Source of the DNA: Brevundimonas huaxiensis
GTDB lineage: Bacteria > Pseudomonadota > Alphaproteobacteria > Caulobacterales > Caulobacteraceae
DNA length: 64,000 nt
Assembly (NCBI RefSeq): GCF_014218725.1
Contig: NZ_JABBJE010000004.1
Coordinates: 62,001-126,000 of the forward strand
Reading direction: 5' to 3'
Shown here in pieces: positions 8,203 through 14,404 of the stretch. The stretch's first letter is position 1; each line of letters begins with the position of its first letter. The notes beneath the pieces are model-generated. The model saw only the letters and a list, made by a program, of their open reading frames with translations, did no database searches and was not told the DNA's origin. A program made the translations under genes and the position numbers.

Positions 8203-9099
8203 TCAGTAGAAGGTCGTGTCGTCCTGCTTGCTGGGCGCCGGGGCCGTGCGCGGCGACGGCGCCGGTCGGTTCGTTGCGGGCGGGGTCGCCGGGCGGGCTT
8301 GAGGCGAGGACGGTGTCGGCATGGTTCCGCCCGCCGGCGCATTGACCGGAGGGATCGCCGGCAGGTCCGGATAGGGCATGGCCGAAGGGCGGGCGTCCTG
8401 CGTGGGCGCCGCTTCTTCGGGCGGGATCGGTCCCGCGTCGGGCTGGCCCAATCGGTCGGGCGCGCCGACATCGTCCCGGATGAAGGCCCAGGCCTGACGG
8501 TCCGAGCAGCCGCAGGCCTTCAGGAAGCCCTGCTTGTCGCGCCACAGGATCAGCGGATAGCTGATGTCGACGCCGGATTCCTTGAGCAACTGGCTCAGCC
8601 GCTCGTTGAAGCGACGGCCGGCTTCCACCACGGCGGTGCGCGCCAGATTGCCGTCCGCCTGCGGCACGCCGGCGGCGGTCCAGCTGTTCGCCGGCGTCGC
8701 CATCCAGCGTTGATAGAGCGGCCAGTCGCGCGTCAGCCACAGCTCCGCGACCGTCGCCCGCTCCGCCGCCGTCGATTGCGCCGCACCCTCCAGATCGGGT
8801 CGGGCGAACAGGATGTAGCGCGTCTCGATCCCCGCCGCCTTCAGCTTGGGCGCTTCGTCGCGCGCGTAACGCAGGGCTGAAGCGCTGTCGCGATAGGTGA
8901 CGATGTACAGGGCCTGTCCCCCGCTGCCGTCCGACACCCAGGACGCCTCGTCCAGCAGTTGTTGCACCTCGGCCTGATTGCGGCTGATGGTGAACGGCTG
9001 GAACCGCGAGTAGAAGTTCCAATAGGCCCAGTATCCGGCGCCGGCGAGCAGCAGGCCGACCACGGCCGCCACGATCGAACCCATCAAAAAGCGACGCAT
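8203..9099 (-). CDS. Membrane-anchored protein of unknown function with proline-rich tail
   Basis: No known function recognised. The 298-residue product has one N-terminal transmembrane helix (about residues 6-28, SIVAAVVGLLLAGAGYWAYW) and a soluble region of about 180 residues. It contains a beta-alpha stretch (ALYIVTYRDSASALRYA), a second (ISYPLILWRDKQGFLKACGC) with a CxC pair, and an AWAFIRDDVG segment. These could suggest a thioredoxin-like fold, but this is weak. The last 70 residues are Pro/Ala-rich and probably disordered. The ATG at 9099 was preferred because upstream extension adds a leader that would put 62 unlikely residues before the membrane helix. It converges on the PLP enzyme gene. 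Confidence 0.7.
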   Translation of the reverse strand: MRRFLMGSIVAAVVGLLLAGAGYWAYWNFYSRFQPFTISRNQAEVQQLLDEASWVSDGSGGQALYIVTYRDSASALRYARDEAPKLKAAGIETRYILFARPDLEGAAQSTAAERATVAELWLTRDWPLYQRWMATPANSWTAAGVPQADGNLARTAVVEAGRRFNERLSQLLKESGVDISYPLILWRDKQGFLKACGCSDRQAWAFIRDDVGAPDRLGQPDAGPIPPEEAAPTQDARPSAMPYPDLPAIPPVNAPAGGTMPTPSSPQARPATPPATNRPAPSPRTAPAPSKQDDTTFY

Positions 9100-9234
9100 G
9101 TAATCGGGTGCTCCAGCTTCACCGTTGACCCTTCCTAACGCATAGCATCGGAATCCGTTGTCGCCCGCATTCGCCGACGTCTTCATCGTTGCTCGAGGCG
9201 CCAAAATGTCGCGAAAGATTCCGCCCGATGCGCT

Positions 9235-9262
9235 CTTGAACGCCGCAGGCGGCTTCCCATTT
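9235..9262 (+). promoter_or_regulatory. Candidate RpoH (heat-shock sigma) promoter for the small RNA
   Basis: CTTGAA at 9235-9240, a 15-base spacer, then CCCATTT at 9256-9262 closely matches the sigma-32/RpoH pattern (CTTGAA-N13-15-CCCCATNT). Transcription would begin near 9268-9270, just before the first stem-loop of the RNA candidate. This is a motif match only. Confidence 0.45.
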
Positions 9263-9267
9263 CCGAT

Positions 9268-9389
9268 TTCGACGCTGCGGGACACTCCCCCTCCGAACCG
9301 CAGCGAAGCGAAGCCGGCGCCCTCCCCTCCCCTCCAGGCGCCGCTCGCGCAGGCCGCCGGACTCCCCCAGTCCGGCGGCTTTCTGCTTT
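9268..9389 (+). ncRNA. Candidate small regulatory RNA with three C-rich stem-loops
   Basis: Three consecutive hairpins are visible. Stem-loop 1: CGCTGCGG (9273-9280) pairs with CCGCAGCG (9298-9305), a perfect 8-bp stem whose 17-base loop contains ACTCCCCCTCCG. Stem-loop 2: CGGCGCC (9315-9321) pairs with GGCGCCG (9337-9343); its 15-base loop is CTCCCCTCCCCTCCA. Stem-loop 3: GCCGCCGGACT (9353-9363) pairs with AGTCCGGCGGC (9369-9379) around CCCCC, and is followed by TTTCTGCTTT. C-rich loops of this kind can pair with Shine-Dalgarno sequences and are known from alphaproteobacterial small RNAs such as the CUCCUCCC-motif (cuckoo/CcsR) family and Caulobacter GsrN. Identity with any of these is not claimed. 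Alternative: a structured leader of gdhZ, but the terminator would then act as an attenuator. Confidence 0.5.
9353..9389 (+). terminator. Intrinsic terminator of the small RNA candidate
   Basis: A perfect 11-bp stem (9353-9363 with 9369-9379) and a 5-base C loop are followed directly by TTTCTGCTTT. The U-rich side exists only for + strand transcription. No + strand protein gene lies upstream for more than 1 kb, so the terminator must serve a non-coding transcript or act on gdhZ leader RNA. Confidence 0.6.
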
Positions 9390-9414
9390 GTGGCGCTGCA
9401 CAATAATTTCAACC

Positions 9415-9427
9415 TGATCACTGATCA
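9415..9427. promoter_or_regulatory. 13-base palindrome upstream of gdhZ
   Basis: TGATCA-C-TGATCA lies 120 bases before the gdhZ start, in an AT-richer pocket (9405-9437) that is unusual in this GC-rich sequence. Such a compact palindrome could be an operator for gdhZ or for the adjacent RNA. No regulator can be named from it. Confidence 0.35.
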
Positions 9428-9437
9428 TTACAATGAA

Positions 9438-9547: not shown

Positions 9548-12500
9548 ATGACCGCCCACGATCTGCGCCAACCCGTTCAGCCGATCACCAAGGCCGCGCT
9601 GGAGGCGGCCTTCGCCAAGATCGTGGGGACCGGGCCCGGCGCAGTCGAACAGACCTATCTGACTCAGGCGCACGAAGACTATTCCGCCGATGAGACGCCC
9701 GAGCTGAGCGGCGAGGATCTGGCCGCCCTGCTCGCCGCCTCCTGGACCGCCGCCAAGGCCTATCCTACCGACGCGGCCGCTCCCGCCATCACCGTCGGCC
9801 CGCTGCACGGCGCGTCGGAAAGGGTTCTGGATTACGATCTGGTGCGTATCGTCCAGTCCGACGCGCCCTTCCTGGTCGACAGCGTCATGGGCGCCCTGGC
9901 CGAGGCCGCCGTGTCCGTGCGCGCCCTGTTCCACCCGGTGGTCGAGCTGGACGGCCGGCGTCTGTCGATCATCATGCTGGTCATCGACAGCGTGCCGCAG
10001 GAGCGTCGCGACGCCCTGGGCGAAGGCCTGGCCCAGAGCCTGTCGGACGTCCACGCCGCCGTCGCCGATCACGACGCCATGACGTCCCTGATGCGCCAGG
10101 CCGTGCAGCGTCTGGAAGAGACCCCGCCCCCGGTCGATCCCGCCGTCCTGGCCGAGAACATCGCCTTCCTGAAATGGCTGAAGAGCGACCATTTCGTCTT
10201 CCTGGGCGCGCGCGACTACGACTATCCGCTGAACGCCGACGGCGACTATGAGGCCGAGGCGCCGCTGGGCCTGTCCACTGACGGCCTAGGCATCCTGGCC
10301 GACCCCGAGCGCACCGTGCTGCGCCGCGCGTCGGAACCCGCCGTCCTGACGCGCCAGATGCGCCGCCAGTTGGACCTCAGCGAACCGGTGACGGTGGCCA
10401 AGGCCAACGCCCGCTCGCGCGTCCATCGCCGCGCCTACATGGACTATGTCGGGGTCAAGCGTTACGGCCCGGACGGCAAGGCGACCGGCGAGACCCGTTT
10501 TGTCGGCCTGTTCACGTCGGAAGCCTACGACCAGCTGACGACCGAGGTGCCGTTGCTGCGTCGCAAGGTGGCCAACGCCCTGGCCCGCGCCGACAAGGCG
10601 CCCGGCAGCCACAACGAAAAACGCCTCAAGAACATCCTTGAGAATTATCCGCGCGACGAGCTGTTCCAGGTCAGCGAGGACGAGCTGCTGTCCATCGCCC
10701 TGGGCATCCTTCACCTCTATGACCGGCCGCGCATCCGTCTGTTCTCGCGCCAGGATCCGTTCGACCGCTTCGTTTCGGTCCTATGCTTCATCCCGCGCGA
10801 GAAGTTCGATTCCGCCGTGCGCGAACGCATCGGCCAGATCATCGCCCGCGCCTGGGGCGGCCGCATCTCGGCCTGGTATCCGGAGCTGTCCGACGCGCCC
10901 CTGGTGCGCATCCACTACATCATCGGCGTCGAGCCCGGCGCCCACCCGATCCCGGACGCCGCCCAGCTGGAAGCCGACGTCGCCGAGGCCGGTCGCGGCT
11001 GGGTCGATCGTTTCGAAGCCGCCCTGCGTCGCTCGGGCGTCGAGGAAGTCGCCGTCGGTCCGCTGAGCGCCCAGTGGGCCCGCGCCTTCGGCGCCGCCTA
11101 TCGCGATCGCTATGACGCCGACGAGGCCGCGACCGACCTGCAATACGTAAACCGGCTGAATGAGACGGGTCTGCCCGGCGAGGGTAAGGCCGTCGCCGTG
11201 CGCGCCTTCCGCACGCCGGACGACAGCCGACTGCAGTTCCGCTTCAAACTCTATCGTCGCGGCCCGGCCGTGCCCCTGTCCGACGTCCTGCCGATCCTGG
11301 CCGATATGGGTCTGAAGACGTTGGAGGAATACGGCTATCCGATCCGTCCGATGGGCGAGGAGGAGATCCACGTCCACGAGTTCCTGATGGAGGATCCCCG
11401 CGGCGAAGCGCTGGTCTTCGATGATGTAAAGGGCCCGTTCGAGGACGCCTTCGCCGCCGTCTGGACTGGCCGCAACGAAAGCGACGGCTTCAACCGCCTG
11501 GTGATCGAACTGGGCGTGGAATGGCGCGACGCCGCCCTGATCCGCACCCTGGCCCACTATCGCCAGCAGACGGGTCTCGACCCCTCCCAGACGGTGCAGG
11601 AAGAGGCCCTGCGCGAATATCCCGACGTGGCGCGCGCCCTGCTGTCGCTGTTCAAGGCCAAGTTCGCGCCGGAAGGGGGCTCCGCCGACGACCGCGCGCC
11701 GGCCGTCGCCGAGCTGGACGCCAAGATCGTCACCTTGCTGCAGGACGTGAAGAGCCTGGATCACGACCGGGCCCTGCGCCGCATCGCCGCCCTGATCGGC
11801 GCGATCAAGCGCACCAACTATTTCCAGCTGGACGCCGACGGTCAGCCCAAGCCGCACATCTCGATCAAGATCGCCTCGCGCGAGCTGGACGACCTGCCGC
11901 TGCCCAAACCCTATCGCGAGGTCTTCGTCTGGGCGCCCCACGTCGAGGGCGTGCACCTGCGCTTTGGTCCCGTCGCGCGCGGCGGTCTGCGCTGGTCGGA
12001 CCGTCGCGACGACTTCCGCACCGAGGTCCTGGGCCTGGTCAAGGCGCAGCAGGTCAAGAACGCGGTCATCGTGCCGGTCGGCTCCAAGGGCGGCTTCTAT
12101 CCCAAACAACTGCCCCGCACGACGGACCGCGAGGCTATTCAGGGCGAGGCCATCCGCGCCTATCGCACCTTCCTGTCCGGCCTTCTGGACATCACCGACA
12201 ACATCGCCGCCGACGGTTCGGTGACCCATCCAGCCAATGTCATCGCCTGGGAAGGCGACGACCCCTATCTGGTCGTGGCCGCCGACAAGGGCACGGCGAC
12301 CTTCTCCGACATCGCCAACGGCGTCTCGGCGTCCTACGGCTTCTGGCTGGGCGACGCCTTCGCCTCAGGCGGCTCCATCGGCTATGACCACAAGGCCATG
12401 GGCATCACCGCGCGTGGCGCGTGGGAGGCGGTCAAGCGCCACTTCCGCGAGATGGGCAAGGACATCCAGACTCAGCCCTTCACCATGGTCGGCGTCGGCG

Positions 12501-14404
12501 ACATGTCCGGCGACGTCTTCGGCAACGGCGTCCTTCTGTCCAAGGCGACGCGCCTGGTCGCCGCCTTCGATCACCGCGACATCTTCATTGATCCGAACCC
12601 GGATCATGTGACCAGTTGGACCGAACGCAAGCGTTTGTTCGACCTGCCGCGCTCGTCCTGGCAGGACTATGACAAGGCTCTGATCTCGGAGGGCGGCGGC
12701 GTCTTCTCGCGCTCGGCCAAGTCGATCCAGCTGACGCCGCAGATCAAGGCGGCCCTGGACATCGCCGAGGACGAGTTGGACCCGGTCAGCCTGATCCGCG
12801 CCATCCTGAAGGCGCCGGTCGAACTGCTCTATCTGGGCGGCATCGGCACCTATGTGAAATCGGCGGCCGAAACCGACGCTCAGGTCGGGGACAAGGGCAC
12901 CGAAGCCCTGCGCATCAACGCCGACGAACTGCGGGTCAAGGTGGTGGGCGAGGGCGCAAACCTGGGCTTCACCCAGGCCGGGCGCATCGCCTTCGGTCAG
13001 GCCGGCGGTCGCATCAACACCGACGCCATCGACAACTCCGCCGGGGTCGATACCTCCGACCACGAGGTCAACATCAAGATCCTGGTCGGCTCGGCCGTGA
13101 CCAACGGCGTCCTGCCGGCCGAGGAGCGCACACCGCTTCTGGCCTCCATGACCGACGAGGTCGGCCTGAAGGTGCTGGCCCACAACTACGACCAGACCCT
13201 AGCCCTGACCCTGCAACAGGCTGAGGGCGTCGGCGCCCTGGACGCCCAGCAGCGGTTCATGCAGAGCCTGTCGGCGCGCGGAAAGCTGGACCGCAAGGTC
13301 GAGGGCCTGCCCAACGACGCCCGCGTCAAGGAGCTGATGACGGCGGGCATCCCGCTGGCCCGGCCCGAGCTGGCCGTCCTGATGGCCTACGCCAAGCTGG
13401 AGCTGTCGGACGACATCGTCGCCTCGCAGGCGCCCGAGGATCCCTTCTTCGAACAGATCCTGGTCCGCTACTTCCCCGAGGCCCTGGCCCGGTTCGAGCC
13501 GGAGATGAAGAGCCACCGTCTGCGGCGCGAGATCATCGCCACCGTCATGGCCAACGAAGTCGTCAACATGTGCGGCCCGACCTTCCCCGACCGCCTGCGC
13601 GGCTCGGCGGAATGCGACACCACCGCCCTGATCATCGCCTTCGAGGCCGCGCGCCGCGTCTTCCGTCTGGACGAGGCCTGGGACGCCGTCTCGGCCCTGG
13701 ACCTGAAGATCTCGGCCGAGGCGCAGACGGCTCTGTATCAGGAGATCGCCGTCGTCCTGCGCCGCCAGACCTTCTGGCTGGCCCGCCGCGCCAAGGGCGG
13801 CCTGTCGGTCCAGGCCCTGATCGACCGCTACCGCCCGATCGCCGACGCCTTGCAGGCCGAGGGCGCGCCGGTCCTGTCGCGCTTCGAACAGGGGCGTCTG
13901 GATGCGCGCGTCAAACGCTTCGCCGACCACGGCGCGCCCGAGGATCTGACCCGCAGCATCGCCATCATGCGCCCCCTCGTCGCCGCCGCCGACATCGGGG
14001 ACCTGGCGCAGGAGGCGAACTGGCCGGTCGCGGCCATGGCGCGCCTGTATCACCAGGTCGGCGCCGCCTTCGACTTCGACCGTCTGCGCGCCGCCGCCGG
14101 CTCCATTCCGTCTGCGGATCATTTCGATCGTCTCGCCGTTCGTCGTCTGATCGAGGATCTGATGAACGAGCAGGCGGCCCTGACCCGCGCCGTCGCCCGC
14201 GCCTCCGATCCGTCGGTCGGCGTCAGCGAGGACGCGGCCGAGGCCGCCGTGGACGCCTGGATCGGCTCCAAACAGGCGACGGTCGAGGGCGTGCGCGCCT
14301 CGGTGGACGAGATCGAACAGTCCGGCTCGGGCTGGACCTTCGCCAAACTGACCATCGCCAACGCCACGATCCGCGATCTGGCGACGGCGGCGGTCAATTC
14401 CTGA
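9548..14404 (+). CDS. gdhZ: NAD-specific glutamate dehydrogenase, large (180-kDa) class
   Basis: Oxidatively deaminates glutamate to 2-oxoglutarate and ammonia with NAD, feeding the TCA cycle. The product is 1618 residues, the right size for the large bacterial class. It has a long N-terminal regulatory region with ACT-like segments (VRIVQSDAPFLVDSVMGALAE near residue 100), and a catalytic core at about residues 800-1220. The core contains GGLRWSDRRDDFRTEVLGLVKAQ and VKNAVIVPVGSKGGF, followed by the Rossmann part (VGVGDMSGDVFGNGVLLS, VGEGANLGFTQ). In Caulobacter the orthologue GdhZ also inhibits FtsZ assembly; whether that holds here is unknown. The ATG at 9548 (MTAHDLRQ) is preferred over an in-frame TTG 36 bases upstream. 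The upstream gap is rich in possible control elements. A repeated hairpin element sits five bases after the stop. Confidence 0.97.
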   Translation: MTAHDLRQPVQPITKAALEAAFAKIVGTGPGAVEQTYLTQAHEDYSADETPELSGEDLAALLAASWTAAKAYPTDAAAPAITVGPLHGASERVLDYDLVRIVQSDAPFLVDSVMGALAEAAVSVRALFHPVVELDGRRLSIIMLVIDSVPQERRDALGEGLAQSLSDVHAAVADHDAMTSLMRQAVQRLEETPPPVDPAVLAENIAFLKWLKSDHFVFLGARDYDYPLNADGDYEAEAPLGLSTDGLGILADPERTVLRRASEPAVLTRQMRRQLDLSEPVTVAKANARSRVHRRAYMDYVGVKRYGPDGKATGETRFVGLFTSEAYDQLTTEVPLLRRKVANALARADKAPGSHNEKRLKNILENYPRDELFQVSEDELLSIALGILHLYDRPRIRLFSRQDPFDRFVSVLCFIPREKFDSAVRERIGQIIARAWGGRISAWYPELSDAPLVRIHYIIGVEPGAHPIPDAAQLEADVAEAGRGWVDRFEAALRRSGVEEVAVGPLSAQWARAFGAAYRDRYDADEAATDLQYVNRLNETGLPGEGKAVAVRAFRTPDDSRLQFRFKLYRRGPAVPLSDVLPILADMGLKTLEEYGYPIRPMGEEEIHVHEFLMEDPRGEALVFDDVKGPFEDAFAAVWTGRNESDGFNRLVIELGVEWRDAALIRTLAHYRQQTGLDPSQTVQEEALREYPDVARALLSLFKAKFAPEGGSADDRAPAVAELDAKIVTLLQDVKSLDHDRALRRIAALIGAIKRTNYFQLDADGQPKPHISIKIASRELDDLPLPKPYREVFVWAPHVEGVHLRFGPVARGGLRWSDRRDDFRTEVLGLVKAQQVKNAVIVPVGSKGGFYPKQLPRTTDREAIQGEAIRAYRTFLSGLLDITDNIAADGSVTHPANVIAWEGDDPYLVVAADKGTATFSDIANGVSASYGFWLGDAFASGGSIGYDHKAMGITARGAWEAVKRHFREMGKDIQTQPFTMVGVGDMSGDVFGNGVLLSKATRLVAAFDHRDIFIDPNPDHVTSWTERKRLFDLPRSSWQDYDKALISEGGGVFSRSAKSIQLTPQIKAALDIAEDELDPVSLIRAILKAPVELLYLGGIGTYVKSAAETDAQVGDKGTEALRINADELRVKVVGEGANLGFTQAGRIAFGQAGGRINTDAIDNSAGVDTSDHEVNIKILVGSAVTNGVLPAEERTPLLASMTDEVGLKVLAHNYDQTLALTLQQAEGVGALDAQQRFMQSLSARGKLDRKVEGLPNDARVKELMTAGIPLARPELAVLMAYAKLELSDDIVASQAPEDPFFEQILVRYFPEALARFEPEMKSHRLRREIIATVMANEVVNMCGPTFPDRLRGSAECDTTALIIAFEAARRVFRLDEAWDAVSALDLKISAEAQTALYQEIAVVLRRQTFWLARRAKGGLSVQALIDRYRPIADALQAEGAPVLSRFEQGRLDARVKRFADHGAPEDLTRSIAIMRPLVAAADIGDLAQEANWPVAAMARLYHQVGAAFDFDRLRAAAGSIPSADHFDRLAVRRLIEDLMNEQAALTRAVARASDPSVGVSEDAAEAAVDAWIGSKQATVEGVRASVDEIEQSGSGWTFAKLTIANATIRDLATAAVNS

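Follow-up and report, generated by a model that had tools for sequence, protein, structure and literature searches.

A candidate small RNA with an RpoH-type promoter and two conserved C-rich loops upstream of gdhZ in Brevundimonas

The region upstream of gdhZ and its promoter

In the window (the whole 64,000-nucleotide stretch of Brevundimonas huaxiensis DNA that we analysed), a gene-free gap separates the start of a divergent gene at 9099 from the ATG of gdhZ at 9548, in agreement with the roughly 450 bases claimed in the original prediction. The divergent upstream gene (8203..9099, minus strand) encodes 298 amino acids without a Pfam or NCBIfam family at E 0.001, and the same gene is present in 8 of the 100 Brevundimonas loci aligned below. 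gdhZ (9548..14404, plus strand; Pfam PF05088) encodes the large NAD-glutamate dehydrogenase; compared with named genomes, GdhZ agreed at 98-99% over the matched part and lay near that of B. vesicularis. We regard gdhZ as a conserved neighbour of the small RNA gene described here, and it is not thought to be part of that gene.

Re-reading of the sequence confirmed the letters and positions originally reported for 9235-9389. On the plus strand, the -35 element CTTGAA (9235..9240) and the -10 element CCCATTT (9256..9262), which begins 17 bases after CTTG, were both present as described. They precede a predicted small RNA of ~118 nt (9268..9385, plus strand), with its start placed by promoter spacing and its end by the terminator. 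Hairpin 1 (9273..9305) has a stem of 8 pairs (9273-9280/9298-9305) and the loop GACACUCCCCCUCCGAA (9281-9297); hairpin 2 (9315..9343) has a stem of 7 pairs (9315-9321/9337-9343) and the loop CUCCCCUCCCCUCCA (9322-9336). Hairpin 3 (9353..9384), with 11 pairs (9353-9363/9369-9379), a short CCCCC loop and a weak T tract (TTTCT), is an intrinsic terminator. All three lie on the plus strand.

The fold of RNA 9268-9386 (-62.7 kcal/mol) was stronger than that of its shuffled versions (-45.2 +/- 3.5 kcal/mol; z -5.0), and 0 of 200 shuffles was as good. By a counting rule that hairpin 1 itself does not pass, C-rich hairpins occurred at a mean of 2.85 per strand in 20 random first-order 64-kb sequences, and the window had two such places on the plus strand and a few on the minus strand. 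Because C-rich hairpins alone are common in such DNA, conservation must bear the argument. A coding role for the small ORFs across 9119-9428 was not favoured, since loop lengths vary by single bases among relatives and the stems covary.

The promoter had been called RpoH-like, and this was borne out: the motif is common to heat-shock genes of the same genome. The genome contains the pattern CTTG-N17-CYYATNT 14 times, with a single copy in the window, and its backward reading 5 times. Of the 13 copies elsewhere, seven stand before folE, an osmC-like gene, dnaJ, dnaK, hsp20, a DegP-like protease gene (its fragment scored 0.4 bits below the Pfam cut-off) and a thioredoxin-domain gene; the remaining six comprise one before a DUF6481 gene, one before an ORF without a family and four without a clear gene start. 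There is good evidence, at the level of sequence, that CTTG-N17-CYYATNT represents the heat-shock promoter of B. huaxiensis, and a promoter of this type suggests that the small RNA is heat-shock-controlled. A good RpoH-type motif elsewhere in the genome (L254, G000:C5:81368-81395) is not followed by a clear gene start and could control a further untranslated RNA.

Conservation and covariation in Brevundimonas and its relatives

A blastn search of 61 genomes located the stretch in 17 of them, at 22 places. Eight of these (L013, L016-L022) showed no tandem C-rich hairpins by eye and were kept out of the model; from the fourteen full-length homologues we built alignment A1 and covariance model R1. 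Of 131 genus genomes, 121 had an R1 match with an E-value of 0.001 or lower, and 112 of the 131 scored at least 50 bits, as counted from the match table. Alignment A2 consists of 100 of these 112 genomes; absent from it are nine near-identical loci (L028-L034, L036, L037), G022 and G025 (both in A1), and G098. A downstream gdhZ on the same strand was identified in 99 of the 100 A2 loci at E 1e-6 and in all 100 at E 1e-4. The conservation upstream of gdhZ that the original prediction had proposed as a check was thereby established by both model and synteny. In the vesicularis group, another gene lies upstream of the RNA.

The promoter is largely preserved in A2. CTTG-N17-CYYAYNY precedes 77 of the 100 loci, and the exact spacing or letters are missing in 23; of the stricter forms, CTTG-N17-CCCATNT was found in 31 loci and CTTG-N17-CYTATNT, which we take to be the published alphaproteobacterial heat-shock consensus, in 40. 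Stem partners pair in 98.4% of cells, a figure favoured by the fitting of A2 to R1, and pairing fell to 31-56% when partners were slid by 1-3 columns. Two-sided changes were seen at 16 of 24 model pairs (7 of 7 in hairpin 1, 4 of 5 in hairpin 2 and 5 of 12 in hairpin 3) and in 162 cells, well above the 29.7 +/- 9.3 in shuffles, so that the expected covariation of the stems was recovered.

Loops 1 and 2 each contain the heptamer CCCCUCC in 97 of 100 loci, compared with 0.8% of background 18-base windows containing CCCUCC or CCUCCC. Loop 3 is not conserved: CCCC was found in 30 of 100 loci and CCUCC in 0 of 100, with GCAA, GAAA, UCCCCC and others as variants. Therefore, the RNA has two conserved regulatory loops and a terminator, not three such loops; of the original description, all three stems stood, but the C-rich loop is kept in hairpins 1 and 2 only. 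Clearly, the conservation of the promoter, the stems and loops 1 and 2 is far beyond chance.

Among genus genomes with a weak R1 match or none, gdhZ was sought in 19 and its stretch obtained from 17. The promoter or two long C-rich runs were present in 9 of the 17, and neither was found upstream of gdhZ in the other 8, for which the upstream sequence amounted to none (one genome), 259 bases (one), ~1.2 kb (two) or at least 1.4 kb (four); the search for a promoter and long C-rich loops was negative even in these last four. Where R1 matched at ~30-50 bits outside the gdhZ region, as with the second match in the B. huaxiensis genome (G000:C1:992283), the match leans on the terminator, and score alone was not taken as grounds for membership. 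A clear C-rich loop pair was absent from five of six alignments of weak R1 matches, and the sixth (L137) proved to be a locus preceding gdhZ. A further R1 match of 32.7 bits adjoins L132.

Outside Brevundimonas, we examined 46 gdhZ loci of Caulobacter, Phenylobacterium and other Caulobacteraceae genera, about 40 of them distinct because six pairs are identical upstream. R1 matched upstream of gdhZ at E 0.1 or better in 42 of the 46, with matches that lean on the terminator. On reading, many of the loci showed several consecutive hairpins (often four) with C-rich loops, together with a CCTATCT -10 element and a terminator, and related RNAs with C-rich loops lie upstream of gdhZ in Caulobacter and Phenylobacterium; in L163 and L164, none of these features was seen. 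In an explicit test with the gdhZ start located by tblastn, and with the -35 element loosened to CTTN as in all tests outside the genus, promoter, three C-rich runs and terminator were found together in 23 of 46 loci and the promoter in 30 of 46. A cruder test with an assumed gdhZ start gave 22 of 46 and 29 of 46, respectively, and 0 of 1130 control windows. The -35 element outside the genus is often CTTC, CTTA or CTTT (CTTC or CTTA in the Phenylobacterium loci that passed the promoter test), and for this reason the RpoH reading is weaker there.

In other families of the order (L280, L286, L291, L292, L295), a different two-hairpin element with a terminator was seen upstream of gdhZ; it has the conserved loop GUGCGUCCCCCCA, contains a GUCCCCCCA loop and gave no Rfam match above cut-off. 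A class-wide pattern of promoter plus C-rich stretch, which misses the window's own locus, had matches in 6 of 289 genomes, including one Brevundimonas genome. In three other alphaproteobacterial families (L260, L262, L265, L267), C-rich stretches that partly form hairpins come after an RpoH-like motif and may be further stress RNAs. If the reading of the Brevundimonas RNA proposed below is right, it would hint that anti-Shine-Dalgarno RNAs driven by RpoH are widespread in Alphaproteobacteria.

Relation to known alphaproteobacterial small RNAs

The small RNA matched no Rfam family above cut-off. The search with Infernal did return full-length matches to alphaproteobacterial small RNAs, all of them sub-threshold: ar14 at 31.3 bits (E 3.9e-4) and ar7 at 24.6 bits. 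Alphar7 (RF02342) likewise has three hairpins with C-rich loops, but its cut-off is 60 bits and the locus lies far below it. The alphaR8 RNAs (MmgR, SisA-D) share the anti-Shine-Dalgarno signature; they differ in having, according to the part of the source available, a single 10-mer UUUCCUCCCU stretch and often a place beside an FGase gene (PMC12559287), and alphar8 is absent among the three Rfam matches listed for the locus. None of the entries listed by our searches of open-licence literature showed a small RNA gene ahead of gdhZ in Caulobacter or Brevundimonas.

The closest counterpart is alphar14/cuckoo (NfeR1, SmelA075; RF02344), which has the same tandem hairpins with anti-Shine-Dalgarno loops, variable covarying stems and a terminator hairpin. 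It is possible, though we think it rather unlikely, that the Brevundimonas RNA is a diverged true member of this family by descent, in which case only the family's range would be extended. The full-length ar14 match points in this direction, and when 61 genus genomes were searched for ar14, the 22 top-scoring matches were all at the RNA locus upstream of gdhZ. The CcsR RNAs of Rhodobacter, too, have an RpoHI/RpoHII promoter, as given in the accessible portion of the report (PMC10253847). However, the alphar14 cut-off of 58.8 bits was reached in 0 of 61 genus genomes (best 46 bits), the ar14 search of the B. huaxiensis genome itself listed another place instead, and a sub-cut-off ar14 match also occurred in 1 of 14 control genomes.

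The loops differ as well. Alphar14/cuckoo RNAs carry CCUCCUCCC in every hairpin loop, as far as the consulted parts of the sources go (PMC3927594, PMC10746234), whereas the Brevundimonas RNA has CCCCUCC instead, in two of three loops only and without the motif in the third. One convincing copy was seen in the B. huaxiensis genome, compared with six NfeR1-type copies in S. meliloti (PMC7143759, in the excerpt available), and the Brevundimonas RNA has a promoter of RpoH instead of sigma-70 type and a place in the neighbourhood of gdhZ.

CcsR1-4 of Rhodobacter sphaeroides resemble the Brevundimonas RNA as stress RNAs with an RpoH-type promoter, a likeness that is drawn here from sequence. The CcsRs are processed from a ccaF1 (DUF1127) transcript, whereas the Brevundimonas hairpins directly follow the promoter; the interval between the -10 element, which ends at 9262, and hairpin 1, which begins at 9273, is too short for a DUF1127 gene or any other protein gene. 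Because no genome passes the cut-off and the motif differs, we did not file the RNA as alphar14; it appears to work like alphar14 and CcsR RNAs without being listed as an alphar14 member. The original comparison with the CcsR/cuckoo group and GsrN needs correction in that the alphar14 cut-off and motif were not matched and GsrN has a separate candidate (see below).

Candidate targets and proposed mode of action

The loop heptamer CCCCUCC is the complement of GGAGGGG. An ATG follows GGAGGGG at a distance of 3-10 bases at 49 sites of the genome, compared with 8 sites for the reversed pattern. (For GGAGGGGAGG, which is identical to its own reversal, such a control is uninformative.) We read 30 of the 49 start sites; 10 of the 30 head open frames that are probably not genes, because they are shorter than 60 amino acids. 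An ABC-ATPase gene of the iron/heme/corrinoid group, assigned from NCBIfam matches that are all below cut-off, has a GGAGGGG start site with ten bases complementary to loop 2, and its start region gave predicted duplexes of -23 to -24 kcal/mol with the loops, as good as the best 0.3% of 3000 random windows. GGAGGGG starts were also seen at a gene with a weak match of FecA type and at another that encodes a carboxypeptidase-regulatory-like domain. The start sites also include ctrA (NCBIfam equivalog, above cut-off), with a predicted duplex of -16 to -17 kcal/mol, ordinary for a GGAGG start; it is equalled by ~4% of random windows and by about half of the GGAGG-ATG windows, the median of the latter being about -17 kcal/mol with the loops (n=49). 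Since these sites were found by searching for such Shine-Dalgarno sequences, strong duplexes are not independent evidence. At ctrA, GGAGGGG lies five bases before the ATG (L333, G000:C1:8844-8858) and is complementary to both loops.

The gdhZ-linked conservation, the covariation, the RpoH-type promoter and the full-length sub-threshold Rfam matches together support the original proposal of a small RNA. We consider it likely that it is a stand-alone, RpoH-driven, anti-Shine-Dalgarno RNA that represses mRNAs in trans, and we infer its transcription, induction, pairing, targets and effect as follows. RpoH (sigma 32) would transcribe the gene in heat or protein-folding stress, and the transcript would stop at the intrinsic terminator to give ~118 nt. 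Two stable hairpins would then expose single-stranded loops with CCCCUCC, which may pair in trans with purine-rich Shine-Dalgarno sequences of the GGAGGGG type; masking of start sites would keep ribosomes off and lower the translation of a gene set, probably transport and envelope genes, during stress. Alphar14/cuckoo RNAs silence several mRNAs through anti-Shine-Dalgarno loops; for the Brevundimonas RNA, duplex predictions give candidate targets for such silencing. NfeR1, an RNA of similar build, is described in the available part of one report as silencing transporter mRNAs and ntrB via such loops (PMC10746234). We favour repression in trans by start-site masking under heat because of the loop complementarity, the duplex energies and this precedent. 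If this is right, Caulobacteraceae, including the cell-cycle model Caulobacter, would have a post-transcriptional arm of the heat-shock response, an RNA arm that we did not find for the family in the open-licence literature searched. The fixed place upstream of gdhZ and the two loops make the RNA simple to delete and mutate.

Alternatively, the RpoH promoter could make a leader of gdhZ mRNA, with the terminator as a regulated stop in cis. The same-strand position upstream of gdhZ, in 99 of 100 A2 loci and in other genera, fits such a leader, and so does Phenylobacterium, in which the terminator is often within ~35 bases of the extrapolated gdhZ start and in several loci ends ~10-34 bases before it. 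We nevertheless consider it improbable. gdhZ lies 84-281 bases from the RNA in 64 of 100 Brevundimonas loci but 1100-1244 bases away in the other 36 (L072, L073 and L079 among them), and each of the 13 distant loci that we read has a same-strand gene in between; the intervening gene looked outer-membrane-like by eye and gave no Pfam match in the one case tested. Pairing of the loops with the start of gdhZ in the window is also predicted to be poor (-3 to -5 kcal/mol). The C. crescentus gene CC0088 is presumably gdhZ. In the available excerpt of a study of metal stress, CC0088 was a constant qPCR control (PMC3511200), which also speaks against a regulated leader.

It is about equally improbable that the C-rich loops act as a sponge, binding a G-rich small RNA or a protein instead of mRNA start sites. 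A sponge RNA is known from C. crescentus, CrfA, whose G/A-rich loop pairs with the UUUCCUCCCU motif according to the part of the source consulted (PMC12559287); against a sponge here, the kept heptamer complements GGAGGGG, which is enriched before ATG. We give similarly little weight to a broader scheme, in which the two loops of the RNA would mimic the anti-Shine-Dalgarno end of 16S rRNA and put a general brake on translation in Caulobacteraceae, ctrA being one of the targets; if that were true, heat stress would directly lower the master cell-cycle regulator.

Identity with GsrN of the general stress response is hardly credible: although GsrN is likewise a Caulobacteraceae stress RNA with a C-rich loop and occurs in Brevundimonas, it has an EcfG promoter (GGAAC-N16-CGTT) and usually lies near phyR/ecfG, though not in C. 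crescentus, as stated in the part of the report available (PMC5869019), whereas the RNA adjoining gdhZ is without this promoter. None of the 35 EcfG-pattern matches in the genome (versus 32 for the reversed pattern) is at the RNA locus. A separate GsrN candidate (L310) lies beside phyR, near 97.7 kb of G000:C2, and by eye has an EcfG-type promoter, a CCCCCC loop and a terminator-like end.
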